Virus record (IMG/VR): IMGVR_UViG_3300017917_000802
Location: 1-21,580 of that record
Length of the DNA stretch: 21,580 nucleotides
Source: a virus
Strand: one strand, 5' to 3'
In this document: positions 3,339-20,634 of the stretch, piece by piece
Layout: every line of letters starts with the position of its first letter
Numbering within the stretch: the first letter of the stretch is position 1
Notes under the pieces: generated by a model
The model's input: only the letters and a program-made list of their open reading frames with translations
Databases searched by the model: none
What the model was told of the DNA's origin: nothing
Made by a program: the position numbers and the translations under genes

Positions 3339-4247
3339 TTAGTTCATTCTATTCAGTTTAAGTACTCTAATATTAATATTATTTTGAGAATACCCTGAAT
3401 TGTTTGTAAAGACTATATTAAAGGCTCCACTATTATTTGAGTTAGAACTTACTGACCACCCTGTAGATGTAGAAGTAGACACATTATTATCATTTGTTGA
3501 TCCGTCTGAAAAGAAGTGAGCAAATCCAGTAGCAAAAGCCCTTACGTTTGTACCAGAAGGGGCATATAAACCAACAATATCATATAGATAAGAACTCATA
3601 TATTCATATAATACTTGAGATATTGAAAGTGAGACTGAGGCGCCATTACTTACACCTCCACTATAAGTATAAAATGAATAAAGTGTATTACCCTGAGTGT
3701 CTATATAACCATTTCTTCCATTTTGGTTTAAAACCATTATATTGTTAAATCCAGTTGCGGCTCCGGCGGTTACAGAAGCATTTCTAAATGTCATATTTCC
3801 AGAACCATCAAAAAACATTTGTTGGGCAAATGATGTTGTAGTACCTATCCAGTTAGTTCCATTGTAATAAACATTGTTTCCTAAAAACATTGAATTATCA
3901 TCAGTTCTACCGGTTATGAATACTCCATAAGAACCCATTTGTACAGGTCGCCAACTACTACCCCATCCACTTGGAGTGGTCCCTACTCCAACAATTCCAC
4001 TACCACTAACAAATAATGAGTTTGATCCTACTTGGAGTTGTGTTGAATTTGATGAGCTAATGTAAGTACTACCTGTAATGTTAGTATTACCATTAATGTT
4101 AGTAGTACCTACAATACTACCACTTACAGCTAAACTACCTGTAACAGTAGTGTTACCTGTAAAGCTAGTAATGCCTATAATAGTATTAGGTGTACTACCA
4201 CTTAATACCATTGATCCTGTTACGTTTAAATTCTGTAATAACTTCAT
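3339..4247 (-). CDS. Tail fibre protein without S74 chaperone
   Basis: 302 residues, ATG 4245-4247. Residues 1-85 are the fibre shaft vocabulary: repeated TGS/SGS turns (NVTGSMVLSGS, TVTGSLAVSGSIVG), then ITGSTYISSSNSTQLQVG, which matches the start of the 345-residue neighbour closely. Residues about 86-190 carry Gly/Asn/Trp-rich beta segments (WGSSWRPVQMGSYGVFITG). Residues about 200-302 form a distinct C-terminal domain (SLSISQVLYEYMSSYLYDI, later FATGFAHFF and ending NINIRVLKLNRMN) that could be a receptor-binding head. Unlike its three upstream neighbours it ends without an S/D-x-R-x-K chaperone motif. No Cys. It starts 5 bp after the previous stop and so belongs to the same operon. Structural role is well supported; receptor binding is inference. 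Confidence 0.85.
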   Translation of the reverse strand: MKLLQNLNVTGSMVLSGSTPNTIIGITSFTGNTTVTGSLAVSGSIVGTTNINGNTNITGSTYISSSNSTQLQVGSNSLFVSGSGIVGVGTTPSGWGSSWRPVQMGSYGVFITGRTDDNSMFLGNNVYYNGTNWIGTTTSFAQQMFFDGSGNMTFRNASVTAGAATGFNNIMVLNQNGRNGYIDTQGNTLYSFYTYSGGVSNGASVSLSISQVLYEYMSSYLYDIVGLYAPSGTNVRAFATGFAHFFSDGSTNDNNVSTSTSTGWSVSSNSNNSGAFNIVFTNNSGYSQNNINIRVLKLNRMN

Positions 4248-4252
4248 TTTAA

Positions 4253-5290
4253 TTATTTATTTTCTAGTTCTTGCACACGTGCTGTTAATTCTTGAATTGC
4301 TTTTACTAAGTAAGGTACTAAGTAATCAGAATAGTATGATTTTACATCACCTAATTCTTCATCTTGCCAAGAATTAAATACAGCGTCTGGTATTGCTTCT
4401 TCAATATTTTGTGCTGTAAATCCTGTTACCGTTATACTATTTTCTAATTCTCTTGTCCACTTAAATTTAATTGGGTTCAATTTCATTATAGCTTCTACAC
4501 CATTTTCAACATCTGCTACTTTTGTTTTAAGACGAGCATCTGAAGAATAAGCTGCCCAAGCGTTTGTTCCGTGTACTAATTGAACCCCACCACCAACTGA
4601 TGGGCCTCCCCTCCAGGTAAAATATACTGTTCTTCCAGTTCCACTAGCAGAATCAGTAGTTCTACCATTTTCAAACAATATTTGATTTGATGTATCGGCA
4701 TACCATACAGTTCTTGTATATGTTCCCTCTCCTGTTGCAAGATTATTTATAGTTCCAATCAATCCAATAGCTCCACCTGATTGTAAATTACCAGTTGACT
4801 TATCTGTTGAGGTTCCTGCTAATAGTGTTTGGCTTACTGTAACAATACCATTTTGATCAATCTTCATTCTTTCTGTTAAAGAACCATTACCTACGTTTGT
4901 TTTAAATGATAGACCACCACTATCTCCATAGTTAGTAGAAGCTCTTATAAAGTCAATAGATGCAGCATTACCTGCTAACGTTGTTGATCCATAACCTCCT
5001 CTAAGTCTACCATAATATTCACCAGCATTTTGAGGAGTATACATCATGTATAAAGAAGAACTATACATTTTCATATCAGCACCATAAATCTCTAAAGAAG
5101 CATATGGGGTGGTTGTTTTTATACCTATATCACCACTACTACTTACAAATAAAATATTTGAACCTACTTGAAATTGAGTATTATTAGATGAACTAATATA
5201 AGTGCTACCTGTAATACTAGTATTACCTACATATGATGTAGAACCTGATAGTAATAGTGATCCTGATATTATTGGTGAATCTATAATCAT
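4253..5290 (-). CDS. Tail fibre protein with C-terminal peptidase S74 chaperone (345 aa)
   Basis: ATG 5288-5290, one base after the stop of the 361-residue gene. Residues 1-60 are TGS/SGS shaft turns, including ITGSTYISSSNNTQFQVGSN, shared with the 302-residue gene. Residues about 60-245 are Gly-rich beta structure with LTERMKID (about 138-145), the ERM(R/K)I motif common just upstream of S74 domains. Residues about 249-345 are the S74 intramolecular chaperone: SSDARLKTKV with Ser250 and Lys255 as the expected catalytic dyad, LNPIKFKWT, FTAQNIEEAIPDAV, and a closing coiled coil (LVPYLVKAIQELTARVQELENK, positions 324-345). In this family the domain trimerises, assists folding and then cuts itself off in front of the Ser. 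No Cys. Confidence 0.9.
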   Translation of the reverse strand: MIIDSPIISGSLLLSGSTSYVGNTSITGSTYISSSNNTQFQVGSNILFVSSSGDIGIKTTTPYASLEIYGADMKMYSSSLYMMYTPQNAGEYYGRLRGGYGSTTLAGNAASIDFIRASTNYGDSGGLSFKTNVGNGSLTERMKIDQNGIVTVSQTLLAGTSTDKSTGNLQSGGAIGLIGTINNLATGEGTYTRTVWYADTSNQILFENGRTTDSASGTGRTVYFTWRGGPSVGGGVQLVHGTNAWAAYSSDARLKTKVADVENGVEAIMKLNPIKFKWTRELENSITVTGFTAQNIEEAIPDAVFNSWQDEELGDVKSYYSDYLVPYLVKAIQELTARVQELENK

Positions 5291-5291
5291 T

Positions 5292-6377
5292 TTATTTGTT
5301 TTTTAACTCGTCTATTTCTGCTTTTAATTCTTGGATTGCTTTTACTAATATTGCCATTACTGCTCTATCTTGAACAGTTAATGTACCATCTGCCATTTTA
5401 CCTACTGCCTCTGGAAAATCTTTTTCAATTGACTGAGCAATAGTAGATATATAAACATTTTCTTTGTCTAAATCAGTTTTTTCATTCCATTTAAAATAAA
5501 CAGGTTCAAAATTCATTATTTTATCCAATGCATTTTCTACTGGCTTAATAACATTTTTTAATATTCTATCTGACGAAGCCGTTATGTTACCACTTGCATC
5601 AGTTGTTAAAGTACCTGATCCATAACCTGATAATCTTGCTAAATAGTTTATTGACCAACGAGAACCATTTACTGCCATATTCCAAGTAACATAACCGCCA
5701 CTCCCGTCATTAAGTCTATATCCATTAGAATATATACTACCATTAGCTTGTATAACTCCCGTTCCCGCATCTGTCGTGGTCCCTATTAATACATTACCCC
5801 CACTTGTAATACGCATTCTTTCAGTAAGTGTACCTCCGGTTGCTGTTTGGAATACCATATTAGCTCCATCAGCATTTCCATCTAAATAGGTTCCAATTCC
5901 TGATACATTTACACCCTGATTAACTCCATATACTCCAGTAACTCTAGCTGTTGACGCACCAGTATTAGATTCTAGTAATAGGTTACCAGTACCAACCCCA
6001 GATGTGGTGGCTTTTACTCTTATATGGGCATCATTGTTTGCTACCTGTACATCTAAAGGATAAATTGGATTTGTTGTTCCTATACCTACTTTACTACTAC
6101 TGCTTATAAAAAAAGCACCACTATTAACATTCAAAGCAGTTGATGAACCACTAATCAATACAGAACCTGTAAATTGTTGAGTGTTAGAAGATAAGTTTCC
6201 GAATATATTAGATCCTGAATTATAGCTGATAGATGAAGTTACAGTTTGTACAACTAATGTTTGTGCAGTAATAGTACTGTTAGTAGTTATTGATCCACTC
6301 ATAGTCAAACTACCAGACAATATAGAACTACCTACAACTGTTAGCGAACCTGTGATATTTGCGTTATTGATTAACAT
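5292..6377 (-). CDS. Tail fibre protein with C-terminal peptidase S74 chaperone (361 aa)
   Basis: ATG 6375-6377, preceded by TATTTATATATAACTT with no Shine-Dalgarno. Residues 1-35 are short TGS/SGS turns; residues 36-78 are the recurrent module with ITAQTLVVQTVTSS, SGSNIFGN and FTGSVLISGS. Residues about 90-250 include VGIGTTNP and LTERMRIT (about 184-191), typical of proteins ending in S74. The chaperone domain is residues about 267-361: SSDRILKNVI with Ser269 and Lys274 as the likely dyad, NFEPVYFKWN, STIAQSIEKDFPEAV and a C-terminal coiled coil (LVKAIQELKAEIDELKNK). The mature product would be about 268 residues if cleavage happens as in other S74 proteins. One of three consecutive S74 genes, each with a different central region. 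Confidence 0.9.
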   Translation of the reverse strand: MLINNANITGSLTVVGSSILSGSLTMSGSITTNSTITAQTLVVQTVTSSISYNSGSNIFGNLSSNTQQFTGSVLISGSSTALNVNSGAFFISSSSKVGIGTTNPIYPLDVQVANNDAHIRVKATTSGVGTGNLLLESNTGASTARVTGVYGVNQGVNVSGIGTYLDGNADGANMVFQTATGGTLTERMRITSGGNVLIGTTTDAGTGVIQANGSIYSNGYRLNDGSGGYVTWNMAVNGSRWSINYLARLSGYGSGTLTTDASGNITASSDRILKNVIKPVENALDKIMNFEPVYFKWNEKTDLDKENVYISTIAQSIEKDFPEAVGKMADGTLTVQDRAVMAILVKAIQELKAEIDELKNK

Positions 6378-6385
6378 AAGTTATA

Positions 6386-6393
6386 TATAAATA
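6386..6393 (+). promoter_or_regulatory. TATAAATA octamer in the 16-bp gap before the 361-aa fibre gene
   Basis: The gap 6378-6393 reads AAGTTATATATAAATA on the plus strand. The octamer core matches those at 2749, 8792 and 20692. It lies only 8 bp from the ATG, which argues against a promoter for this gene and may simply reflect AT-rich initiation DNA. Confidence 0.18.
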
Positions 6394-8748
6394 TTATTTT
6401 TGTTCTAGGGTTTCAACACGTGATTTTAATGAATCATTTTCAGATTTTAATTCTTTTACAGCAGCTACTAATAAAGGAATTACATCAGTGTATGTTATAC
6501 CCAAATATCCTGTTTCATCATCTTCATGTACAGCTTCAGGTAATACTTTTTGTAAATCTTGAGCAATTAAAAATGATCTTCTTTTTGTTTCTTCATCAGT
6601 AAGAAATCTACCAGTTACTGCTCTTAAAGAAGATACTTTATTTGATGCATCTGTAATTTCAGTTAAATCTGTTTTTAATCTTTCATCTGAAACACCACCC
6701 CATGAAGTACCTCCAAATGGTATATAAACACCTGTACCGTCTGATACTCTTTGGATATAGAAGTTACCGTTACCTGCATTATTTTTTACTTGCATATTAT
6801 ATGCATATGAACCACCATAAGGAGAAGTATCCATGAATATCACAGCACTACCTGGTACTGACATATATATGTTACCATAAACTCCTAGTTTTTGTCCTAA
6901 ATCAGATGTAGTACCTATCATTAAGTTATTACTACTATTTATTCGCATTGCTTCTGCGTTGTTAGTATCAAATGTGATAGTATTTGATGCCTCTCTTAAA
7001 GCAATGTTATTATTTCTTGTTGATGCATAAGCACTTAACCACAAACCACCAGAACCACCTTGAACGTACATGTAACCATTTGAATTATAATGTATTGATG
7101 AGTTTGTTCCTAATAAAGCAGATCCAGCAGAGTAAACTGAACCTGTTGTGAAAGTTACCCAACCATTACTTGTAACACGCATTCTTTCAATATCGTTAGT
7201 ACCAAATGCTAAAGGATGGTTTGATACAGCTCTTAATCTCCATTCAGCAGTAGGGGTATCATATCCTAAAATAGCAGTTGGATTAGGAGATGTTGTTGTT
7301 TCAACTAATCTAATTTGTGGATAAGTACTTTTTGATATTGTTACAGAATCTGCAGATGAGACTGATCCTATTTGTACAAGACCGTTACTGATATTTAATG
7401 CAGTGCTTGAACCACTAATCAACACAGAACCAGTAAAGGTTTGGGTATTAGAAGTTGCGTTACCAAATATGTTGGATCCTGAAGAATATGTAATTGAAGA
7501 AGTAACTGTTTGTACAACTAATGTTTGTGCAGTTATTGTACCTGTACTTGTTAAGCTACCTGTTACAAACACACTACCTGTAAAGTTAGCAGGACCTACA
7601 TTATTAAAAGTACCTGAACCACTTACGGTTAAAGAGCCTGTTATCAATAAACTGCCTGTAAATGAAGTTACACTACCTGTAGTTGTAAAAGGGCCTCCTA
7701 TAATGTTTGACCACAAAGTAGAACCACTAACAATACTTCCTGCTTTAGAAACATTAGCCCAACCTTTTACAGGAGAGGTAAATGTTACTAAAATTGATCC
7801 TGAATTTATTGAAGTAACTGTATCTGGTTGTAAAATTTGATTGGATCCACTTTCCCAAAGTGTTACTAAAGGATATGGTTCCCCTAAAAAGTGGTTTAAA
7901 GACCAAGTTGCTGAAGAAGAAGGTATTGTAATTACAGTACCCGAATTTACAGCAACACCACCACCTAAAGTAGCTGTTACTTTACCTGTAGCAGGATAAG
8001 CAAATGTAATAGTAGCATTATTAATATCTACTGCTTGAATATTAGATGGGATTAATACATTATCATTACTATCAAATACTTGGAAGTTTGGATACTTATC
8101 TCCTATACCATGGTTAAATGACCATGTTGCTGCTGGAGAGGTTATACTAAGTTGTCTAGTAGTACCACCATTTGTTACTGTATATCCACCACCCACAGCG
8201 GCTGTTGCATATCCTGCTCGAGCTGTTGAAAAATATATATTAATAAGATTTGATCCTGATGGAGTAATATTTAAAGGTTGTATTACAGAGTTTGATCCAC
8301 TATCATATACTGTTATTACAGGATATTGTGTTCCTAAATTATGTGTAAATGACCAAGTAGTAGCAGCTGTTGTTTGTGTTAACAAAGCATTACCTCCTAG
8401 CCCACCACCTGAACCACCATTAGCGGCGTAAGATGCTGTTAAAGCATAAGATGCTGATACTACAGATGCTATATAAGATGCTGTAAAAGCAAAAGAGGAA
8501 GTTGAAGCAAAAGATGCTGAAGTAGCAATAGATGCTGTAGCGGCGTATGAGGCACTAATTGATGAAGCACCACTTACATACGATGCTGTTAATGCTAGAT
8601 TTGAATAAGATGCAGTTCCTGTTAAGTTACCAATAAATGATCCTGTAAATATAGAACCACTTACACTGTTAGTTACAGATAAAGAACCACTTACTGTTGA
8701 GTTAGCAAGCGCAATGACGCCATTGCGAGCAATAAATTCATTAGCCAT
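6394..8748 (-). CDS. Large tail fibre with three tandem beta modules and S74 chaperone (784 aa)
   Basis: ATG 8746-8748 with a GAGG element nine bases upstream. Residues 1-110: NGVIALANSTVSGSLSV, then ASYA/TASxx heptads and a GGSGGG linker. Residues about 124-337: three tandem copies of a roughly 65-residue beta module, each with W-S-[FL]-x-H-x-[IL]-G followed by YP..xV(Y/F/W) and ITF..P..G (Trp132, Trp209, Trp282). Residues about 355-450: TGS/SGS turns and the SGSNIFGN module. Residues about 450-680: Gly-rich tip region with IERMRVTS and AEAMRINS. Residues about 685-784: S74 chaperone, GVSDERLKTD with Ser687 and Lys692, FLIAQDLQKVLPEAV, then a coiled-coil end (LKSENDSLKSRVETLEQK). Probably a trimeric fibre matured by self-cleavage before Ser687. 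No Cys seen. Confidence 0.92.
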   Translation of the reverse strand: MANEFIARNGVIALANSTVSGSLSVTNSVSGSIFTGSFIGNLTGTASYSNLALTASYVSGASSISASYAATASIATSASFASTSSFAFTASYIASVVSASYALTASYAANGGSGGGLGGNALLTQTTAATTWSFTHNLGTQYPVITVYDSGSNSVIQPLNITPSGSNLINIYFSTARAGYATAAVGGGYTVTNGGTTRQLSITSPAATWSFNHGIGDKYPNFQVFDSNDNVLIPSNIQAVDINNATITFAYPATGKVTATLGGGVAVNSGTVITIPSSSATWSLNHFLGEPYPLVTLWESGSNQILQPDTVTSINSGSILVTFTSPVKGWANVSKAGSIVSGSTLWSNIIGGPFTTTGSVTSFTGSLLITGSLTVSGSGTFNNVGPANFTGSVFVTGSLTSTGTITAQTLVVQTVTSSITYSSGSNIFGNATSNTQTFTGSVLISGSSTALNISNGLVQIGSVSSADSVTISKSTYPQIRLVETTTSPNPTAILGYDTPTAEWRLRAVSNHPLAFGTNDIERMRVTSNGWVTFTTGSVYSAGSALLGTNSSIHYNSNGYMYVQGGSGGLWLSAYASTRNNNIALREASNTITFDTNNAEAMRINSSNNLMIGTTSDLGQKLGVYGNIYMSVPGSAVIFMDTSPYGGSYAYNMQVKNNAGNGNFYIQRVSDGTGVYIPFGGTSWGGVSDERLKTDLTEITDASNKVSSLRAVTGRFLTDEETKRRSFLIAQDLQKVLPEAVHEDDETGYLGITYTDVIPLLVAAVKELKSENDSLKSRVETLEQK
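7735..8382 (-). repeat. Three tandem W-S-x-x-H-x-x-G beta modules in the 784-aa fibre
   Basis: Residues about 124-337 of the encoded protein. The anchor motif occurs as WSFTHNLG (Trp132), WSFNHGIG (Trp209) and WSLNHFLG (Trp282), spaced 77 and 73 residues. Each copy continues with a YP-x-(V/F)-x-V-x-(D/E)S segment, a P-x-x-(I/V) turn and an ITF-x-x-P-x-x-G strand. Copies are diverged at the DNA level, so the duplication is old. I recall the same module as a single copy in fibre proteins of many aquatic phages; its function there is not established. Confidence 0.78.
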
Positions 8749-8805: not shown

Positions 8806-11800
8806 CTACATGTAAGTAGCAATTGCTTTAAGTAACCATCCTGATGTGTTAGTTTGGATGTTAAATTGAGCTTGGTTTGTTACAATAGCTACTGATGCAG
8901 TTACTGCATTTGTGTTTCCTATATCTGTTGTAGATATGTCAGTGTATGTTACACTTCCACCATTCCAAACAGCCATTACTTCACCTGTTCTTGCATTAGT
9001 TCCGTTAGATACTGTGTATTTGTAGAAACCAGATGTATAAGAACCTGTTGTTTGAGTAAATAAGTTATTTGAGCCATTTGCTGAAGCTGCTACAGAGTAG
9101 TAATCAGTTAATGTTTGATCAAATGTAAGAGTACCATTAGTTCCTATTACAAAATCTTTAGAATATGAAGAGGTTGTAGCATAAGATGCTGATGTAGCAA
9201 TTAAAGCATATGATGATGTTAATGCGTTAGTAGCATAAGATGCTGTACCATTTAAAGTAGCTGTTATGCTTTGAGATACTATTAATGATCCTGTTATTAC
9301 AACACTTCCATTAACATCTAAAGTAGCATTTAATGAACCCGATTTTTGAAGACCCATTCTAGATCCTGTAATAACTACATCGGCTTGTCCTGATGGGTTA
9401 GCAAACAAGAATAATGACTGTGAAGGGCTAGTACTATTAGCATTACCAACAATTAAGTTACCTCCTACATTATATAGATAAGCGTCTAACGCCTTACCAA
9501 GAACAGTACCTGCATATGCATACGCACCAGCACCACTATTATTGATACCCATATCAATATAATTAGTTGTTGGTGTACCATTATCTGCATAAACGGCAAC
9601 ATCACCTGATGCTGATACTCCTGTACTGATATTTCTAACACTAAATTCTACATATCCGTTTTGGTTACCAACAAACTGACCCAATGTTGGTGCTGATGAA
9701 GTAACATATAATGAACCTGTTACTAATTGGTCTCCTTTAAATGTATTAGATCCAGTAGTTGCAAATGATCCTGTTTTAGCATTTATAGATGCTGTGTAAC
9801 TTAATAAAGATGTTGTTACAGCATATATTGAAGTAATACTTGCATTATTGGATGCAGTATAGTTTAATAGTGAAGCTGTTTGTGCATTAATTGAAATTAT
9901 GTTTGCATTATTAGATGCTGTATAATTCAATAACGATGCTGTTTGAGTGTATATTGAAGTAATACTTGCATTGTTAGATGCCGTGTAGTTCAACAACGAT
10001 GCTGTTTGGGCATTAATTGAAGTAATATTTGCATTGTTGCTTGCAGTATAACTTAATAATGATGCACTAAAGCTATATAAAGATGAGGTAATATTTCCAA
10101 TAGAAGTATTATTACTTGCTGTATAACTTAAAATGCTAGCGCTAAATAAATTTAATGAACTAGTATAGTTTTGGAATGAACCTGTTTGAGTAAACTGAGT
10201 TGAGTCTAATCCATCCAACAAATCAGTATTTGAAGCATATGAAGCAGTTAAAGTGTTAACTACACTTCCACTAACAGATATACTACCTGTTACTAATGTT
10301 GTTCCTATAAGTATAGTAGAACCAGTTACAATTAAACTACCTGATACCTCTAAAGTATCTGAATTAAATCCAACAATAGTTCCTGAACCTGATATTAATA
10401 AGCTACCTGAAATTGTTTCAGTTCCTATAAATGTGTTAGATCCAGTAGTAGCAAAGCTACCTGTTTTAGCATTTATAGATGCTGTATAGCTTAAAATACT
10501 AGCACTAAATAGATTTAATGAGCTTGTATAAGTTGTAAATGAACTTGTTAATGTAAATTGAGTTGAATCTAAACCATCTAACAAATCAGCATTTGCCGCG
10601 TATGAAGCACTTGTAACATTAAATGCATAAGATGAACTTATTGCTTGTGAAGATGATATAGCGTAGGATGCAGTTAAATTGTTTATTACACTTCCACTTA
10701 CAGTTATTGAACCTGATACTAATACAGATCCTGTAAATTGTTGAGTATTAATAGCGGCATTACCAAATTTATTTGAACCTGTATTGTAAGTTATAGATGA
10801 ACTTACGTATTCTACTATTAATGTTTGTGCGGTAATTGTACCATTTACTACTTGGTTGCCTGTAAAGGTATTTGAACCTGTAGTTGCAAAGCTACCTGTT
10901 TTAGCATTTATAGATGCTGTATAACTTAATAAAGATGCTGTTTGGGCATTTAATGAACTTACATTTGCATTATTAGATGCAGTATAAGAATTTATAGATG
11001 CTGTAAAGAGATATAATGATGAAGTAGCATTACCAAAAGCAGTATTATTAGAAGCAGTATAGCTTAAAATTGAACTACTAAAGTTATAAATTGAACTACT
11101 AAAATTATAAATTGAACTTATACTTGCATTATTGGATGCAGTATAAGAATTTATAGATGCTGTAAATGCATTTAATGAACTAACACTAGTACCATTAGAT
11201 GCAGTATATGCGTTTATAGATGCAGTAAATAGATATAATGAGGCTGTAGTATTACCAAATACAGTATTATTAGATGCTGTATAGGATAAAACAGAGCTAC
11301 TGAAGTTATATATTGAGCTTATACTTGCATTATTGCTAGCTGTATAATTTAATAAACTTGATGTTGCTAAGTTTAATGAAGTTATGTTTGCATTGTTAGA
11401 TGCTGTATAATTTAATAAAGATGCCGTTTGAGCATTTATTGAAGTTATATTTGCATTGTTAGATGCTGTATAGCTATTAATTGAAGCTGTAAATAAGTAT
11501 AGTGAAGCTGTTGTATTACCAAACACAGTATTGTTGCTTGCTGTATAAGATAAAATCGAAGAGCTAAAACTGTATAAAGATGCTGTAGCAACAAGTATAC
11601 TAGCTGTTTGAGCATTTAATGCGCTTATATTAGCATTGTTTGACGCAGTATATGATAATATACTAGCGCTAAATGCATATAATGATGCTGTTGTGCTTTG
11701 TATGTTAGATTCAATTGCACTAATACTTGATGTAAAGCTGTATAAAGAAGCAGTTGCAGCATTTAATGAAGTTATATTAGCATCGTTTGACGCAGTATAT

Positions 11801-14340
11801 GATAATATACTAGCACTAAATAAATTTAATGAACTGGTGTAGTTTTGGAATGAACCTGTTTGTACAAATTGTGTACTATCTAAACCATCTAATAAATCAG
11901 AGTTTAAAGCATATGATGCAGTTCCTACTAATGAACCTGTAAAGGAAGGAGCAATAACACTACCACTAGTTAATGTTAAAACATAGTTTGTAGCATTATA
12001 GAATAAAGCACCACTTGGGTTTCCTCTAAGTGTTGAATAACCATTAGCAGCAACATTACCACTAAATACAGGATATAAAGTAGTATCAGTGTTATCTGTT
12101 AATAATGCTATATTTGAAGCATTAGTTGCTAAACTAGCATTTGATGCATTTGATGCATTTGCGGCATACGAAGAACTTAAAGTATAAGATGAACTTAAAG
12201 CATTTGATGAACTTAAAGCATAAGATGAACTTAATACAGACATTGAAGATGTCTGATTAGTTAAAATTACACTACTACCATTTACAGCTAAAGAACCTGT
12301 AATAGTTACTGAACCAGTAAATTGTTGAGTATTATTTAAATTATTACCAAATTTATTTGAGCCTGTATTATAAGTAATAGATGAACTTATGTATTCTACT
12401 ATTAATGATTGGGCAGTAATACTACCATTTATTACCTGATTGCCATTAAACGTGTTTGATCCTGTAGTTGCAAAAGTACCATTAGATACTTTTTGAGATG
12501 AGGTAAAGTTGTTTATTGAAGCACTAAATGCATTAAATGAAAGTACATTTGTAGTGCTAGATGCAGTATAGTTGTTAATTGATGCTGTAAACAAGTTAAT
12601 TGAAGCAGTAGTATTTAAAATACTAGCGCTAAAAGCATTCAATGATGCTGTATAATTTTGGAATGATCCTGTTTGTACAAATTGAGTACTATCTAATCCA
12701 TCAAATAAATCTGCATTAGATGCATAAGATGCACTTGTAGCAGTTAATGTATATGATGAAGTTAGTGCTTGAGAAGATGTTGCTGCATATGAAGCACTTA
12801 CTGTAGAAGATGCAATTGTAGCATATGAACTAGTTGAAGCATAAGATGCACTTACAGCATATGAAGATGAAGTAGCTGTATCTGCATTACCACGCAATGA
12901 GGCACTAATTGCTGATTGGTTAGTCCATTTACCTGCTGTTGTATCATAAGCAAATGGTTGATGATCTGTAGGACCTGATATTGATACATCTGACAATCCT
13001 GCTAGGGTTGATGTTATTATAGATCCTCCACCTCCAGAGCCTCCTATACTTCTAAATAAACCACTAGGAATAATTTTATATGAACCAGCAACAGTAAAAT
13101 CAGCGTTATTTCTTAAAATCAAAGCACCTACATAAATAGCTTGAGCTGCTGTGTTAGGGGCTTCTGTAAATGATTCTACACTTATGTTTGATATAGCATC
13201 TGAATCAGTTGCGTATTGGTTATTACCATAGTAAACATAAATACCTTTTGTAGCGCTATTAGGGAACCAATATACTCTTTGAATTGACCACCCTCTATTT
13301 GAACCACTACCTGTTACAGCTGATAATACACCATTATTTGAATATTGTGTTGGATCAATTACTGGATATCCAGCACCTCCATTAGTATCATACACCCAAT
13401 CAGATCCTGATTGACGGTATCTGAATATTTTAGATACACTAGTTCCTGCATCTGTAATATAAGATGGGTTATTTGGGTCAATTGAATAGTTTCTACCATC
13501 TGACCAAGCAGTACCTGATGCTACTACTAAGCTACCTGTTGAAGAACCACTAGGTGCTAAAGTAAATCCTGACAATTTTAATGGTCCAAAAGCTCTAATA
13601 AAATCGGATGATCTTTGTTTCCAACCATAAGCAAGAGATGCAAATGTTTGAGTAGCATTGATTGTAGAACGGTTTTGATGTAATACAACACCAATTGGAA
13701 TTACTGTATTAAATTGTCCATCACTATAAGGAGTACCTTGAACAAATATGTTTGAGGTATCATCAATTGCAACAAATGTTTGATCATAAGATGCACTTAA
13801 AGGAGCTATACTAGCTGTTAAATTAGGCCAGTTTAAATACTTAATTGTTGGATATGGGTTAGTATTAAATGAAGCATTTAAACTTACTAAAATACCACTA
13901 CCACTACTTACTTGATAATTAGTAGAAGATGATTGTGATATTATACCTCCATTTAATAAACCTGTGTATAAATTACCTTCTAACCATCTTAAACGAGTTG
14001 TGTTAGCATATCCATTTCCATTCTGAGTAAAGTATAAATCATTTGTTGAACCAGAAACATAAATATAAGATGCTGTTATTGTAGTATCTATACTTTCTAC
14101 TGATGGAAGGAATTTAATAACTCCATTTATGCTTGTGTCTCCGTATATGTTAATGTTTGTAGCAGTACCTGGTATTGATCCTGATACTGTTAAACTTCCA
14201 GATATTGTTGTATTACCTAATAAATTAGTATTACCAATTTGAGTAGTAGAACCACTTATTAAAACTGAACCTGTAAAGTTTGAACTACCTAACTGATTAG
14301 CAGTGCCTATAAATGTTTGAGAACCAGTTATAATAATACT
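8806..14340 (-). CDS. Giant tail fibre, 3' part (frame resumes after a single-base frameshift)
   Basis: I translated the minus strand from 14340: the frame is open to TAG at 8806-8808, 1,844 codons. The first start-like codon is TTG at 13573-13575, in the middle of LKLSGFTLAPSG, so this is not an independent gene but the continuation of the 17399-14328 frame. Order in restored numbering: TGS/SGS turns (1021-1090); globular domain (about 1100-1460) with YTGLLNGGIISQSS, IPIGVVLHQN and LAYGWKQRSSDFIR, ending at a GGSGGGG hinge; LAGLSDVSISGPTDHQPFAY; then four DLLDGLDSTQF cassettes, long heptad tracts and two SGSNKFGN modules; a YIDMGIN module (about 2563-2675); and a C-terminal head of about 110 residues (FYKYTVSNGTNARTGEVMAV, SGWLLKAIATYM). 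No S74 domain. No Cys seen. Probably the receptor-binding end of a long trimeric fibre. Confidence 0.87.
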   Translation of the reverse strand, partial: SIIITGSQTFIGTANQLGSSNFTGSVLISGSTTQIGNTNLLGNTTISGSLTVSGSIPGTATNINIYGDTSINGVIKFLPSVESIDTTITASYIYVSGSTNDLYFTQNGNGYANTTRLRWLEGNLYTGLLNGGIISQSSSTNYQVSSGSGILVSLNASFNTNPYPTIKYLNWPNLTASIAPLSASYDQTFVAIDDTSNIFVQGTPYSDGQFNTVIPIGVVLHQNRSTINATQTFASLAYGWKQRSSDFIRAFGPLKLSGFTLAPSGSSTGSLVVASGTAWSDGRNYSIDPNNPSYITDAGTSVSKIFRYRQSGSDWVYDTNGGAGYPVIDPTQYSNNGVLSAVTGSGSNRGWSIQRVYWFPNSATKGIYVYYGNNQYATDSDAISNISVESFTEAPNTAAQAIYVGALILRNNADFTVAGSYKIIPSGLFRSIGGSGGGGSIITSTLAGLSDVSISGPTDHQPFAYDTTAGKWTNQSAISASLRGNADTATSSSYAVSASYASTSSYATIASSTVSASYAATSSQALTSSYTLTATSASYASNADLFDGLDSTQFVQTGSFQNYTASLNAFSASILNTTASINLFTASINNYTASSTTNVLSFNAFSASINNFTSSQKVSNGTFATTGSNTFNGNQVINGSITAQSLIVEYISSSITYNTGSNKFGNNLNNTQQFTGSVTITGSLAVNGSSVILTNQTSSMSVLSSSYALSSSNALSSSYTLSSSYAANASNASNASLATNASNIALLTDNTDTTLYPVFSGNVAANGYSTLRGNPSGALFYNATNYVLTLTSGSVIAPSFTGSLVGTASYALNSDLLDGLDSTQFVQTGSFQNYTSSLNLFSASILSYTASNDANITSLNAATASLYSFTSSISAIESNIQSTTASLYAFSASILSYTASNNANISALNAQTASILVATASLYSFSSSILSYTASNNTVFGNTTASLYLFTASINSYTASNNANITSINAQTASLLNYTASNNANITSLNLATSSLLNYTASNNASISSIYNFSSSVLSYTASNNTVFGNTTASLYLFTASINAYTASNGTSVSSLNAFTASINSYTASNNASISSIYNFSSSIYNFSSSILSYTASNNTAFGNATSSLYLFTASINSYTASNNANVSSLNAQTASLLSYTASINAKTGSFATTGSNTFTGNQVVNGTITAQTLIVEYVSSSITYNTGSNKFGNAAINTQQFTGSVLVSGSITVSGSVINNLTASYAISSSQAISSSYAFNVTSASYAANADLLDGLDSTQFTLTSSFTTYTSSLNLFSASILSYTASINAKTGSFATTGSNTFIGTETISGSLLISGSGTIVGFNSDTLEVSGSLIVTGSTILIGTTLVTGSISVSGSVVNTLTASYASNTDLLDGLDSTQFTQTGSFQNYTSSLNLFSASILSYTASNNTSIGNITSSLYSFSASLLSYTASNNANITSINAQTASLLNYTASNNASITSIYTQTASLLNYTASNNANIISINAQTASLLNYTASNNASITSIYAVTTSLLSYTASINAKTGSFATTGSNTFKGDQLVTGSLYVTSSAPTLGQFVGNQNGYVEFSVRNISTGVSASGDVAVYADNGTPTTNYIDMGINNSGAGAYAYAGTVLGKALDAYLYNVGGNLIVGNANSTSPSQSLFLFANPSGQADVVITGSRMGLQKSGSLNATLDVNGSVVITGSLIVSQSITATLNGTASYATNALTSSYALIATSASYATTSSYSKDFVIGTNGTLTFDQTLTDYYSVAASANGSNNLFTQTTGSYTSGFYKYTVSNGTNARTGEVMAVWNGGSVTYTDISTTDIGNTNAVTASVAIVTNQAQFNIQTNTSGWLLKAIATYM
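9376..9714 (-). repeat. YIDMGIN/DAYLY module, copy in the giant fibre
   Basis: Encodes VRNISTGVSASGDVAVYADNG.. onward: SASGDVAVYADNG, YIDMGINNSG, KALDAYLYNVGGNLIVGNA and a following LFLFANPSG. The 1074-residue protein has the same order of motifs at 19915-20202. I recall similar (Y/F)ID(M/L)GIN...DAYLY..GG.L.IG segments in fibre proteins of marine phages. Located between the last heptad tract and the C-terminal head. Confidence 0.75.
9796..10047 (-). repeat. Four tandem 63-bp coding repeats (three heptads each)
   Basis: This 252-bp stretch is exactly four 63-bp units. Each encodes three heptads beginning TASNNAN or TASNNAS, then ITSINAQ or ITSIYTQ, then TASLLNY. Copies differ by scattered substitutions, some synonymous. 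The pattern, with small or polar core residues, suggests a trimeric stalk rather than a classic Leu-zipper coiled coil. Copy number could change by unequal recombination or polymerase slippage. Confidence 0.88.
10882..11820 (-). repeat. Long heptad-repeat stalk tract in the giant fibre
   Basis: About 313 codons built almost wholly of seven-residue units of the type (T/S)(A/S)S-x4, such as TASINSY, TASNNAN, FSASILS phases and NTTASLYLF blocks. The order of unit types is irregular, unlike the strict 63-bp array at 9796-10047, but larger blocks recur (for example SYTASNNTVFGNTTASLYLF twice, 60 bp each). Encodes an extended repetitive stalk. Repeat density makes this a likely site of assembly collapse or copy-number variation. 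Confidence 0.85.
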
Positions 14341-17300
14341 ACACTTAATACTGTATTTCCTATTAAAGTATTATTACCCTTTTGAGTGGTAGATCCAGAT
14401 ATTGTAAGCGAACCTGTAATATTTTGATCTCCTATATATTGAGCAGAGCCTGTAAAGTATTGAGAACCAGTTACAATGAATATTGAATTATGGAAGTTAG
14501 AACTACCACTTACATCAATACTACCACTCATTATTGTATTACCAATAATGTAGTTACTACCACTTAACGTATGAGTTCCTATTAATGTGCTTGAGCCTGA
14601 TACTGTTAAAGAACCAGTAATGCTAGTATTAGAGTTTACTCTGAATCCATAAGCAGGATCTACAGATGCTGTAACACTACCACTAGCGATTTGAGCTAAG
14701 TTTAATCCAACAATTCCTGAAGCAGGAATACTATATAATCCACTACCGTCACCTTTAAAGCTACCTGTAAATGAACCTGTAGCATAAGATGAAGTAAATA
14801 AGTTTATTGAAGCAGAAAATCTATTTAATGAAGCTGTAGTTGAATAAATAGATGATGTTGCTGCTTGTAATGATGCTGTTTCAACTAATAAATCTGCAAC
14901 TGTTAAATTTGTACTTGCAGTATATGAATTTATAGATGCACTAAAACTATAAATTGAACTTATACTTGCATTATTTGATGCAGTGTAAGAATTTATAGAG
15001 GCACTAAATAAATTTAATGAACTAGTGTAGTTTTGGAATGATCCTGTTTGCACAAACTGTGTGCTATCTAAACCATCTAATAAATCAGCATTAGCGGCAT
15101 AAGATCCACTTAATGAATAACTACCACTTAAAGCATATGATGAACTAAATGCAGCAGATGCAGATATTGCTTGTGAAGCAGACATCGCATAAGATGCAGT
15201 TAAATTATTTACTACACTTCCACTAACTGTAATGGAACCAGATATTAAAACTGAACCAGTAAATACTTGATTGTTAGAAGCTAAATTACCAAATACATTT
15301 GAACCTGAACTATATTCTTGAGAAGCAGTTATAGTTTGAACTATAATTCTATTAACTGTTAAGTTACCTTGTATTGTTTGGTCTGCTGTGAATATGTTTG
15401 AACCTGTAGTTGCAAACGATCCAGTTTTAGCATTTAATGATGAAGTATAACTTAATACTGAAGCGCTAAATGCATTAAATGAAGCTACATTTGCACTATT
15501 AGATGCAGTATAGCTATTAATTGAGGCAGTAAATAAGTTTAATGATGCTGTTGTTGATAATATAGAAGCACTAAATGCGTTAATTGATGAAGTATAGTTT
15601 TGGAATGAACCCGTTTGAGTAAATTGAGTTGAATCCAAACCATCTAATAAATCAGCATTATTAGCATAAGATGCAGTACCAAATATTGATCCTGTAATAC
15701 TACCACTTACAACTAATGATCCTGTAATTGTAGTAGAACCAGATACAATTAATGAACCTGTTAATACTAATGTATCTACATTTGCTGTAAATAAATTACC
15801 TGTACTTCCTGATACGTTAAGTGATCCTGTTATGTTTACTGAACCTAATATTGATTCGTTTCCTACAAAGCTATTTGAGCCTGTAGTTGCAAATGATCCA
15901 GTTTTAGCATTAATAGATGAAGTATAAGAAAATATGCTTGCTGTAAATGCTTGGTATGATGCTGTTTCAACTAATAAGTCAGCTACTGTTGCACTAATAC
16001 TTGATGTAAAGCTATACAATGAAGCAGTAGTAGATTGAATATTAGCTATTGTATTATTATTACTTGCAGTATAATTTAATAAAGATGCTGTTGTAGCATT
16101 TAATGAAGTTATATTTGCATTATTAGATGCAGTGTAACTATTAATAGATGCTGTAAATAAGTTTATAGAAGCTGTAGTACTTTGAATATTGGAAATAGTA
16201 CTATTATTACTTGCAGTATAACTGTTTATTGAAGCCGTAAATAAATTTAAAGATGCAGTTGTAGCATTTAATGAAGTTATATTTGCACTATTAGATGCAG
16301 TATAACTGTTTATTGAAGCCGTAAATAAATTTAAAGATGCAGTTGTGCTTTGAATATTAGAAATAGTAGCATTATTGCTTGCAGTATAATTGTATATTGA
16401 ACTACTAAAACTATATAAAGAAGAGGTAGCAGCATTTATGGATGCTGTTGTACTTTGAATATTAGATATAGTTGCATTGTTAGATGCAGTATATGAATTT
16501 ATAGAAGCACTAAATAAGTTTAATGATGCTGTATAAGCTTTAAAACTAGAGCTTAAATTATTTACATCAGTATCTGTAGCAAAAGTGGCATCTAAAGATG
16601 AACTAAAAGTTTCTAAAGCACCTATTCTACTATTAAATGATGATGAATTAGCTGTAGCAGATGCTGTAAAACTCAACATTGAAGCACTAAAAGCATTTAA
16701 CGATGCTGTAGCTAATAATATTGAAGCTGAAAACGCTTGGAATGAGGCTGAAAGTGCTCCTAAGTCTGTGTTTCCACTCATAGTATTAATCCTAGCATCA
16801 AAGGATCCACTATCAGTAACATAGTTAGTTAATTTTCTACCAACATATTGATAAGCAGTAATACTAACTACTTGACCTGCTGAAGGAGCTACGGCTGATG
16901 AACTAAACTGTAAAACACCTGTTTTATAGTCAAAAGCGTAGTTGTTAGTAGATTGTACAGTACCATCAATAAACACTTTAGCTAAATAACCTGGAGGGGT
17001 ATCTTCAGTAGTAGCATTTGCTAATGATGGGATTGAATATTTTGGAGAAATAAAGCTTGTTTGTTGGTTTGCATCAATCAATTGAGCACCAATACCTGAT
17101 GTTGAACCTGAAGGGTTTAAGAAAAACCAAACTTCATTGTTCAAATCTGATTTAGTCATATTTTGGCGATACCAATATTTCATTATTGGATTTCCACCAG
17201 AAGAATATGTAAGTCCGTTTTGGAAGCTAGCACTATAAGGTAAGCTAGATGATGGAATTAAAGCCTGGTCAGTATAAATTTCACTAGCATTAAGATCCAA

Positions 17301-17399
17301 TACGGATGTAAATGCTTCTTGGGCATCAGTAAAAGTATCGTGTGTATATCTTCTACTCTGGAGTAACCTTGAGGATTTTTTAGTACTGTCTATTGGCAT
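14328..17399 (-). CDS. Giant tail fibre, 5' part (N-terminal attachment domain and stalk)
   Basis: ATG 17397-17399, ten bases after the previous stop; the frame ends after 1,023 codons at TAA 14328-14330 with an out-of-character GNTVLSVVLL. Residues 1-210 are non-repetitive and Cys-free, with YWYRQNMTKSDLNNEVWFFL (about 75-94) and GYLAKVFIDGTVQSTNNYAF then GVLQFSSSAVAPSAGQVVSI; that last part resembles the V(F/Y)(I/V)(D/N)G...Y..D...G.I.F...P..G domain near the N-terminus of many phage fibres, so it probably anchors the fibre to the tail. Residues about 215-495 are heptads; 496-510 INAKTGSFATTGSN; 520-575 TGS/SGS turns; two DLLDGLDSTQF cassettes (581, 770); SGSNVFGN (698); GIVGLNLAQIASGS (about 895-908, shared with the 1074-residue protein); then more TGS/SGS turns up to the frameshift. 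The intended product is about 2,864 residues. Confidence 0.88.
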   Translation of the reverse strand: MPIDSTKKSSRLLQSRRYTHDTFTDAQEAFTSVLDLNASEIYTDQALIPSSSLPYSASFQNGLTYSSGGNPIMKYWYRQNMTKSDLNNEVWFFLNPSGSTSGIGAQLIDANQQTSFISPKYSIPSLANATTEDTPPGYLAKVFIDGTVQSTNNYAFDYKTGVLQFSSSAVAPSAGQVVSITAYQYVGRKLTNYVTDSGSFDARINTMSGNTDLGALSASFQAFSASILLATASLNAFSASMLSFTASATANSSSFNSRIGALETFSSSLDATFATDTDVNNLSSSFKAYTASLNLFSASINSYTASNNATISNIQSTTASINAATSSLYSFSSSIYNYTASNNATISNIQSTTASLNLFTASINSYTASNSANITSLNATTASLNLFTASINSYTASNNSTISNIQSTTASINLFTASINSYTASNNANITSLNATTASLLNYTASNNNTIANIQSTTASLYSFTSSISATVADLLVETASYQAFTASIFSYTSSINAKTGSFATTGSNSFVGNESILGSVNITGSLNVSGSTGNLFTANVDTLVLTGSLIVSGSTTITGSLVVSGSITGSIFGTASYANNADLLDGLDSTQFTQTGSFQNYTSSINAFSASILSTTASLNLFTASINSYTASNSANVASFNAFSASVLSYTSSLNAKTGSFATTGSNIFTADQTIQGNLTVNRIIVQTITASQEYSSGSNVFGNLASNNQVFTGSVLISGSITVSGSVVNNLTASYAMSASQAISASAAFSSSYALSGSYSLSGSYAANADLLDGLDSTQFVQTGSFQNYTSSLNLFSASINSYTASNNASISSIYSFSASINSYTASTNLTVADLLVETASLQAATSSIYSTTASLNRFSASINLFTSSYATGSFTGSFKGDGSGLYSIPASGIVGLNLAQIASGSVTASVDPAYGFRVNSNTSITGSLTVSGSSTLIGTHTLSGSNYIIGNTIMSGSIDVSGSSNFHNSIFIVTGSQYFTGSAQYIGDQNITGSLTISGSTTQKGNNTLIGNTVLSVVLL
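14338..14345 (-). other. Single-base frameshift site splitting the giant fibre gene
   Basis: Coding strand reads TTAAGTGTAGTATTATTATAA. In frame 0 this gives L-S-V-V-L-L-stop. Adding one base after AGTG (AGT GGT AGT ATT) gives L-S-G-S-I, restoring the SGS motif that recurs every few residues here, and the restored frame stays open for 1,844 codons. The missing base therefore lies at about 14341-14342, most simply one G of GG. No X-XXY-YYZ slippery heptamer is present, so programmed frameshifting is unlikely; mutation or a sequencing/assembly error is more likely. Confidence 0.88.
15906..16757 (-). repeat. First heptad-repeat stalk tract of the giant fibre
   Basis: Residues about 215-498 of the 5' part. 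Heptads of the TAS-x4 type alternate with blocks containing ISNIQST or IANIQST, giving a rough 21- to 42-residue supra-repeat (TASNNATISNIQSTTASLN, then TASINSYTASN). Polar Asn/Thr core positions suggest a flexible trimeric stalk directly after the N-terminal anchor. Smaller tracts of the same kind lie at about 14781-15023 and 12490-12672. Confidence 0.85.
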
Positions 17400-17409
17400 C
17401 TCTTTATTA

Positions 17410-20400
17410 TTAGCTAAATGTTACTGTTATTGATGAAACTGGTGTTGGGTCGCCTTTATATCTTACTATTACATAAATATCAGTGTATGTTGCGTTTAAG
17501 AACATACCATCTGCGTTTCTAATTGGCATAGTATAAGTAGTAGATGCTAAAGAACCACCTGTATTACCATATAATGATATTGTTGATCCAAATGGATTTT
17601 GTCCATCTGTATTTGCTGCTATATCACCTACATAGTTTGATGTTGTCTTTGTAGGATCATAAAATCTAGCAGGCGTATAAATTGAACTATTAGATGATTT
17701 AAATAATATTAAAGCACCAATTGAGTTATTAGTTGTAGCCTGCCAATCAACTAATGTTTGTCCTAAGTTTAAAGTCATGGATGTTTTTGAAGTACCATTT
17801 GTAATAAACCTACGAACATAATATTTGTATGTTTTAGTTGCATCTGGATCTGTAAGCCAGTATCCATAAGTACCTCCTGGTTTAACTAAATATCCAGGCT
17901 TTACTTGTAAATCATTTCCAGTTAAAGTATACAAACCATAGCTTGTATTCCAGGCAGTACCTGTAAATGACAAAATATTATCATTTAATACTATATGATT
18001 ACTTTCACCTGTAAATGGTTCAGAGTTTGAAGCACCACTATTAGTACCTGTATCTGTACCTTGAGTTCTTGTATAATAAGCTAAAGAACCACTTGTTGAA
18101 GGTTGACCAAAGGTTCCTGCTGTATGATAGTTACTAGAAGTTGAATAAGTAGTTGTTGAAGCAGCTTTATTAACACCAGCTATACTTACAGTAAATGTTG
18201 TAGGTGTAAATGATGTTTGAGCAATATTTGTAATATTAGCTGAACCAAAAGTATATAATCCGTTTAATTTAATTAAATCCGTTTCAAATGGAACTGTTGA
18301 TGTAGCTCTAACTGTTGTACCTGTAGAATCAAATACAGCACCTGCTGTTTGAATTGTACCTCCTGCTGTTGATACTGTAGTAACACCAGATGTTTGAGTC
18401 ATACCAGTAGAAACAGTACTTAAGGTAGCAATACCTGCGTTAGCAAAGTATAATGGATTAAACAAGTTAGTAAATGAACTTGATAGATTATATGTTGAAC
18501 CACTCAAATACGGAGCACCAGATAATGAACGAGATACTGCTGTTAAAGCAGTTACTGTTGTACTACCTGTTGTTGGGGTTTGAGATGGAACGTTTGTAGA
18601 AATTGTAGTTAAAGGGGCAAAGAATATTTCTGCATTGCTTACTATTGGTGTAGTATAAGCACTTGAACCACTTGCAATTTGAATTGAAGCTGAAATATGG
18701 TAATACCCACTTTGGCTTACTGCTGCAGCACTACCACTATATATTGTATTTGAGAATACAGAAGCATACTTACCATCTTGATAAGCAGCAGGAATAACTG
18801 CAGGGTTTGAAGTATTAATTTTAGCTAAACTAACACCATTTGTTGTACCAGCTCCTGTTTGAGTAATAAGTTGATTTGAAGAAGATGTTGCAGTATCTAC
18901 TTTAGATGAATTGTCTTTAAATCTAAATGTAAATGAACCACTAACTCTAAAGTTTGTAGGTGTACCACTACTTAATAAACCTAAACCAAATAACTGAGCG
19001 TCAGCTGATGAAGATACTACTGTAGTACCTGCAGCAACACTTGTATAAGTGTAACCATAGTTTCCTTGAGTATAGATTGGAGAAATACCACTAAAAAGTG
19101 TACCACCCGTACTTGCAAATCCTTTTGATGTTAAATAAGTAACAGTTGTGTTAGTAGAGCTTTGAGGAACACTACCTGCTATTACAGTACCTGTAGTTGT
19201 GTTTTGAGCATTTGCTGTGTAAGTACTATAAGTTTTTGTATTTGGAGCAGCATCTGGAGCTGAGGCTGATAATAACCCTGCTACAAATCTTAATATTTCA
19301 GATACATCTGTTTGAGATGTAAAGTTATTAAAATAAGAACCATTCAAACTATTTTGCCATTGGTTTGAAGTAGGAGTACCTACATTTATGTTGTAGGCAT
19401 TTATTGATTGAGAAACGTTTAATGCTCCTGAAATTGAAGTATTAACGTTAACATAAAGTCCTGTATTTGGGTCAATAGATGCTGTTGCACTACCACTAGC
19501 GATTTGAGATAAATTTAATCCAACAACTCCTGAAGCTAATACATAAGATGCAGTTATAGCTTGAGATGCAGATGTAGCAAAAGATGAACTTATTGCTCTA
19601 GAAGCTGATACAGCATATGAAGATGTTAATGTATTAATAACACTTCCTGATACTGTTATAGCTCCTTTTATTAAAACAGATCCAGTAAATATTTGGTTGT
19701 TATTTGCATTATTACCAAATGTGTTTGAACCTGAACTATAGATTATTGATGAACTTACTGTTTGAACTACTAATGTTCTAGCAGTAATGGTATTTGTAAC
19801 ATCTAAATTATTTGTAACTGAATTGTTACTTGCAGTAATATTATTTGAAGCTACTAAACTGCCACTAACACTTAATGAACCAGTCATTGAGTGTTGATTA
19901 TTAGAATTTAATTGAAGTTTTTTATTAGCTTCAACATTAGTACCACCAACAAATAAATTTAATGGTTGGTTTGCTGATGCGTTACCAATATTTAATTTTT
20001 GGCCTGTTGAATATAAATAAGCATCATTAGCGGATCCAATTCCATTTCCGTTATCAATGTAGTTTCCACCATTGATACCCATATCAATGAACTTATCAGT
20101 CTCAGAACCATTATTTGCTGTAGCAACTACATCTGAAGATGCTGAAGTTCCTGCATTAAGGTTTTGGATATTAAGTTGTAAATAGTTATCTAAGTTACCT
20201 TTACCACTAATTACATTAAATGAAGATGTACTTGCTTGGAAAACATATAATGCTTCTGGTGCTGCTGTACTAACACCATTTTGATTAATAGCAATACTAT
20301 AACCTTGATCAAGCCCATTATCGACTTGAAACATTGCGCTATCAGCCAATACTTGTGAAGCACTAAGATAAGGAATGTGACCTATTGTTACATTCTTTAA

Positions 20401-20634
20401 ACTATCTGAATATGAAGATGTTGCGGCGTAAGATGAAGATACTGCAAAAGATGCGCTTGATATTGAGCCGCTTGTTGAAGCTAATTCTACTATACGTGTA
20501 AGGGAACCTGACTGTTTGAAAAAAACTTTACCATCATAGGTGTTTATGGCTAACTCGCCTAAATCTATGGAGGAAGTGGTTGGGACTCTGCCCGGAACGG
20601 CACTGCGTTTTAATTCAATTTTGTTGACAGCCAT
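17410..20634 (-). CDS. Tail fibre/adhesin with large non-repetitive C-terminal half (1074 aa)
   Basis: ATG 20632-20634 with AAGGA about ten bases upstream, one of the few good ribosome-binding sites here. Residues 1-50 (KIELKRSAVPGRVPTTSSID, then LGELAINTYDGKVFFK) are the N-terminal signature of many phage fibres and probably attach the protein to the virion. Residues 55-100 are ASYA heptads. Residues about 137-240 are the module with ASSDVVATANNG, KFIDMGINGG and ANDAYLYSTGQKLNIGNAS, also in the giant fibre. Residues 250-330 carry TGS/SGS turns and SGSNTFGN. Residues about 365-405 match VGLNLSQIASGSATASIDP in the giant fibre. Residues about 425-1074 are non-repetitive: NGSYFNNFTSQTDVSEILRF (about 431-450), then Ser/Thr-rich beta structure, KYYVRRFITNG near residue 970, and a C-terminal YTDIYVIVRYKGDP. 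No S74, no Cys seen. Could be a whisker, short fibre or baseplate-associated adhesin. Confidence 0.9.
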   Translation of the reverse strand: MAVNKIELKRSAVPGRVPTTSSIDLGELAINTYDGKVFFKQSGSLTRIVELASTSGSISSASFAVSSSYAATSSYSDSLKNVTIGHIPYLSASQVLADSAMFQVDNGLDQGYSIAINQNGVSTAAPEALYVFQASTSSFNVISGKGNLDNYLQLNIQNLNAGTSASSDVVATANNGSETDKFIDMGINGGNYIDNGNGIGSANDAYLYSTGQKLNIGNASANQPLNLFVGGTNVEANKKLQLNSNNQHSMTGSLSVSGSLVASNNITASNNSVTNNLDVTNTITARTLVVQTVSSSIIYSSGSNTFGNNANNNQIFTGSVLIKGAITVSGSVINTLTSSYAVSASRAISSSFATSASQAITASYVLASGVVGLNLSQIASGSATASIDPNTGLYVNVNTSISGALNVSQSINAYNINVGTPTSNQWQNSLNGSYFNNFTSQTDVSEILRFVAGLLSASAPDAAPNTKTYSTYTANAQNTTTGTVIAGSVPQSSTNTTVTYLTSKGFASTGGTLFSGISPIYTQGNYGYTYTSVAAGTTVVSSSADAQLFGLGLLSSGTPTNFRVSGSFTFRFKDNSSKVDTATSSSNQLITQTGAGTTNGVSLAKINTSNPAVIPAAYQDGKYASVFSNTIYSGSAAAVSQSGYYHISASIQIASGSSAYTTPIVSNAEIFFAPLTTISTNVPSQTPTTGSTTVTALTAVSRSLSGAPYLSGSTYNLSSSFTNLFNPLYFANAGIATLSTVSTGMTQTSGVTTVSTAGGTIQTAGAVFDSTGTTVRATSTVPFETDLIKLNGLYTFGSANITNIAQTSFTPTTFTVSIAGVNKAASTTTYSTSSNYHTAGTFGQPSTSGSLAYYTRTQGTDTGTNSGASNSEPFTGESNHIVLNDNILSFTGTAWNTSYGLYTLTGNDLQVKPGYLVKPGGTYGYWLTDPDATKTYKYYVRRFITNGTSKTSMTLNLGQTLVDWQATTNNSIGALILFKSSNSSIYTPARFYDPTKTTSNYVGDIAANTDGQNPFGSTISLYGNTGGSLASTTYTMPIRNADGMFLNATYTDIYVIVRYKGDPTPVSSITVTFS
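19915..20202 (-). repeat. YIDMGIN/DAYLY module, copy in the 1074-aa fibre
   Basis: Second copy of the module at 9376-9714. Shared landmarks in order: ASSDVVATANNG, KFIDMGING, ANDAYLY, KLNIGNA, LNLFVGGTN. Here it lies near the N-terminus, whereas in the giant fibre it lies close to the C-terminal head, so the module is mobile between fibre positions. Confidence 0.75.

Follow-up and report, generated by a model that had tools for sequence, protein, structure and literature searches.

The 21,580-base window analyzed in this work, which corresponds to the complete IMG/VR record IMGVR_UViG_3300017917_000802, very probably carries a single giant tail-fibre gene of about 2,864 codons at positions 17399-8806 of the minus strand, interrupted by a one-base slip near position 14340. 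That the two frames involved constitute one fibre gene is indicated by related phages, by an internal repeat copy and by codon usage. The broken frame itself is a genuine observation and chance is excluded as its source, because the frame lengths, the start positions and the switch in codon scores all agree; as for its origin, the slip is most likely a sequencing or assembly error, or else a recent loss mutation, rather than a new genetic mechanism. The explanation is an ordinary one, namely a broken frame in a giant gene of an otherwise known kind.

Genomic setting and phage relationships

All large genes of the window are encoded on the minus strand. The tail sheath gene (1-1440) and a series of fibre-like genes (3339-8748), with small proteins encoded between them, lie on this strand, and the presence of the tail sheath places the giant gene in the tail/baseplate block of a T4-like phage. 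In the nearest relative, an IMG/VR contig (3300032295_001565, hereafter L006), genes for the major head protein, PhoH and a head-tail adaptor are found upstream; at positions 2-2767 of that contig, phrog_138, a major head protein family, is matched by each of two neighbouring genes. The phage is a T4-related myophage and a distant kin of Flavobacterium phage immuto, its closest cultured relative, with 58% identity in the major capsid protein (that of L006) and 43% in the tail sheath; since capsid and sheath are nearest to this phage, the host is likely a member of the Bacteroidota. No relative of the middle domain of the giant fibre was found in the bacterial and archaeal genomes searched, so that no direct link to a host was obtained. 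Furthermore, no full-length relative of the giant fibre appeared among 50,697 phage records; for the database searches, each of the two frames served as a separate query.

The two reading frames and the break between them

The upstream frame (14328..17399, minus strand) constitutes the 5' part of the giant gene and comprises 1023 codons from its ATG to an out-of-frame stop, and the downstream frame (8806..14370, minus strand), which lacks its own start and stays open over 1854 codons, constitutes the 3' part. The two overlap by 43 nt (14328..14370, minus strand), and this overlap holds the break, with a change point at about 14340; the downstream frame is -1 relative to the upstream one. The initial annotation had proposed that the frames join if one base is added at about 14341, and this was borne out by frame-specific codon scores, built mainly on the other genes of the window and on the undisputed parts of both frames: the upstream frame is favored down to about 14,400, and from 14,310 onward it is the downstream frame that scores better, with the switch around 14340. 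The arithmetic behind the length of about 2,864 codons is likewise correct. In the downstream frame, the interval from 14340 to 13575 is free of ATG, GTG and TTG, and the first start-like codons are TTG 13575, GTG 13395 and ATG 12243, which gives a start-free run of 750-2,080 nt according to the start codon allowed. The lack of ATG in this interval, already pointed out in the initial annotation, thus stands, whereas the 750-bp hole anticipated there becomes one of about 2.1 kb if only ATG starts are considered. Over the 5.5 kb past the break, the frame displays no further decay.

Evidence from relatives and from the internal repeat

L006 carries, between the same flanking genes, one unbroken ORF of 2911 codons. 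At the homologous joint its protein reads '...GNTSLSGSIVISGS...' without interruption, in the place where the window frames read '...GNTVLS' and '...IIITGS...'. On both sides of the break, most mismatches between the two aligned genes are at third codon positions, and every gap in their alignment is a multiple of 3 (18, 18 and 21 nt). A comparison with related contigs had been suggested at the outset, and it showed, in addition to L006, that 27 of 28 distinct related ORFs keep at least 150 aa upstream of the domain just past the break in the same frame. The C-terminal head shares an ORF with the middle domain in 20 of the 28 distinct relatives, and in L107 the anchor domain of the window and this type of head are joined in one ORF of 1064 aa. 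Within the window, the break adjoins the boundary of a tandem duplication (14209..14482, minus strand; 143-bp unit, 1.9 copies), whose second copy shows no frame break at the corresponding point. The SGS motif, which the added base had been said to restore, is interrupted at the joint and stays in frame both in this tandem copy and in L006. Against the reading as one gene, the 143-bp unit is present only once in L006, whose middle domain also differs (35% identical), so that none of the relatives covers the joint at single-base level; IMG/VR was scanned with exact patterns spanning the joint or lying to either side of it, and no second copy of the contig emerged.

Domain organization of the expected fibre

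The expected protein is ordinary for its group, being composed of a virion-anchor domain, a TASN/SGS stalk, a middle domain, a further stalk and a beta-sandwich head; as in T4-like tail fibres, a repeat stalk is combined with a globular C-terminal domain matching fibre and tailspike folds. The N-terminal anchor domain (16770..17399, minus strand, about 210 aa) begins with MxIDSTKKSSRxLQSRRYTHDTFTDAQEAFTS..., and its relatives, 59-80% identical over 19 loci, occur as stand-alone proteins of 250-345 aa or as fibre N-termini. It is followed by a first stalk (14331..16769, minus strand) made of TASN- and SGS-type repeats, with tandem repeats of 42/84/168 bp, which is 60% identical to residues 429-1363 of the L006 giant fibre. 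The middle domain (12976..14160, minus strand, 395 aa) was delimited by alignment and is conserved in 25 related phage loci; it was modeled with a pLDDT of 73 and matches tail-fibre families in PHROGs as well as phage proteins in BFVD; its match in the PDB, to the major tropism determinant, is only weak. The second stalk (9175..12975, minus strand) consists of DLLDGLDSTQFxQTGSFQNYTSSLN / NYTASNNANITS-type repeats, with tandem repeats of 63/126 bp. The C-terminal head (8809..9174, minus strand, 122 aa), defined by alignment and structure modeling, was modeled as an eight-stranded beta-sandwich (pLDDT 83) whose nearest solved folds are T4 gp9 and tailspikes, the best Foldseek match being 1qex (T4 gp9; E 7e-4, TMq 0.63, 18% identity), so that a gp9-like fold is predicted. 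Sequence searches of the PDB gave no match, and the giant gene has no Pfam match and hence no C-terminal Peptidase_S74 domain, which three downstream fibres possess.

The head is a module reused among relatives. It is also found on short fibre genes (L048, L049, L050, L052, L054, L063 and L082) that start with MK/RIFQP... and follow immediately on a larger fibre whose last residues are TQIA, the junction being conserved.

Judging from position and fold, the domains may serve as anchor, stalk and receptor-binding head. The intact product would form a long trimeric fibre, docked on the virion by its N-terminal domain, extended outward by the two repeat stalks around the middle domain, and capped by the beta-sandwich head. 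From the contig as read, only the first 1,023 residues would be translatable, minus the middle domain and the head; judging from trimeric fibres in general, a stalk cut before the trimerising head would more likely be unable to fold than work as a short fibre. The expression of a truncated fibre in the phage population and its effect on host range, as envisaged in the initial annotation, would thus be hypothetical, in contrast to the single gene with a one-base break.

A tip/anchor cassette and the preceding fibre gene

The preceding fibre gene (17410..20634, minus strand) encodes 1074 aa, of which the first 400 or so match the start of the L006 giant fibre and the last 654 constitute a conserved tip domain. 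Compared with L006, the window has about 2.3 kb extra between 19427 and 16713, comprising the C-terminal two thirds of this gene up to and including its stop, followed after 10 nt by the anchor domain of about 210 aa. In each of the 17 relatives with a readable flank, the tip domain likewise lies immediately before the anchor domain. Tip domain, stop and anchor domain thus behave as a conserved cassette, which in the window makes one giant fibre gene into two, having been either gained by the window or lost by L006. The comparison with relatives thus depicts giant fibres as built from swappable cassettes.

Similar frame breaks in related contigs

In 1.69 Mb of related contigs scanned for the same signature, the window gave the strongest case, together with three others (L058, L030 and L031). 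In L058 (18300-18430), a fibre frame is broken by a near-perfect tandem copy of 60 bp that has the look of an assembly artefact; in L030 the signature probably reflects the ordinary start of a gene, and in L031 it is short and weak. Separately, at L035:15094-15166, a giant fibre gene of 2013 codons that includes the middle domain shifts frame just before the head, within a repeated domain, a break that the signature scan missed. From the inspection of these contigs, such frame breaks are rare but sporadic. Abutting stalk/head gene pairs in some relatives were also considered as a conserved frameshift and rejected, as the genes are separate in the usual way, with an ATG of their own and a conserved MK/RIFQPIISGS-like start.

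Cause of the frame slip

The likeliest cause of the slip is a consensus error in the metagenome contig, which we consider probable; the respective weights given here to error and mutation are a judgement on a single contig, not a measurement. The overlap lacks both an X XXY YYZ slippery heptamer and any homopolymer of at least four bases, and the window has no further occurrence of any k-mer of at least 15 from the break site; this makes programmed recoding, switching by slippage and collapse of a repeat unlikely. Slipped-strand phase variation was discarded because the site has no homopolymer run of at least 4 and is flanked only by the 143-bp unit, and repeat collapse in assembly because no k-mer of at least 15 is shared at the site. 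Programmed -1 frameshifting, by which an intact gene would yield products of 1,023 aa and about 2,864 aa, agrees with the -1 relation of the frames and with their 43-nt overlap; however, besides the missing heptamer, this overlap is made of repeat coding sequence and the shift is absent in the relatives, which read straight through, so that we hold this mechanism to be highly improbable. In the literature, no match was found for frameshifted fibre genes in metagenomes or for programmed frameshifts in receptor-binding proteins.

The long fibres of T4-like phages are often divided among several polypeptides, and in some relatives the head is encoded by a separate short gene that has an ATG of its own, both of which would suit two real genes, one encoding a 1,023-aa fibre and another starting at TTG 13575 or ATG 12243. 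We give this arrangement very little credence: the interval 14340-13575 is conserved coding sequence in the downstream frame, so that initiation at 13575 would truncate the middle domain, and the conserved MK/RIFQPIISGS-like stretch with which the separate head genes of relatives begin has no counterpart here. It is possible, on the other hand, that the sampled phage truly carries the slip in fixed form, a dispensable fibre having recently lost its function by mutation while other fibres ensure adsorption. The window indeed includes further fibre genes (17410-20634, 6394-8748, 5292-6377, 4253-5290 and 3339-4247), with at least four other fibre-like proteins encoded, three of them bearing Peptidase_S74 chaperones; moreover, the slip lies outside any homopolymer of at least 4, the window has no second such signature and these are rare in the related contigs, and the stf frameshift of laboratory lambda offers a precedent (PMC10721106, PMC3945230). 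Yet the 5.5 kb past the break are intact, which would require a very recent mutation, and the IMG/VR exact-pattern scans provided no independent copy in support. That the slip is real at an intermediate frequency, the population being a mixture of phages with and without the giant fibre, seems improbable. The case is mainly a matter of annotation, given that the largest fibre of the phage would be overlooked or wrongly split; the biological meaning of the broken frame hinges on read data.

Comparison with known systems

L006/L015 (3300032295_001565) resembles the window in gene order and in having one giant fibre ORF at the same place; at the DNA level, parts of the stalks and the head are 86-91% identical. 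It differs in that its ORF is unbroken, its middle domain is distinct (35% identity) and it lacks the tip/anchor cassette; the N-terminus of its giant fibre is the one that the window has on gene 17410-20634. In Flavobacterium phage vB_FspM_immuto (Immutovirus), none of the three domains of the giant gene (anchor, middle and head) has a match. T4 gp9 shares with the head of the window a beta-sandwich fold, predicted in the latter; nonetheless, at 18% identity, gp9 is a baseplate connector, whereas the head would cap a fibre.

Laboratory lambda is devoid of side tail fibres owing to a frameshift in stf (PMC10721106, PMC3945230). While that frameshift is established as real in a laboratory lineage and the slip of the window comes from a single contig only, in lambda PaPa as in the window a tail-fibre gene is split by a frameshift, which in lambda removes the fibre. 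If real, the slip would represent a natural fibre loss by frameshift, as in laboratory lambda, with several other fibres left to the phage; if kept at intermediate frequency, it would be a natural counterpart of lambda stf that could be tracked in time-series metagenomes.
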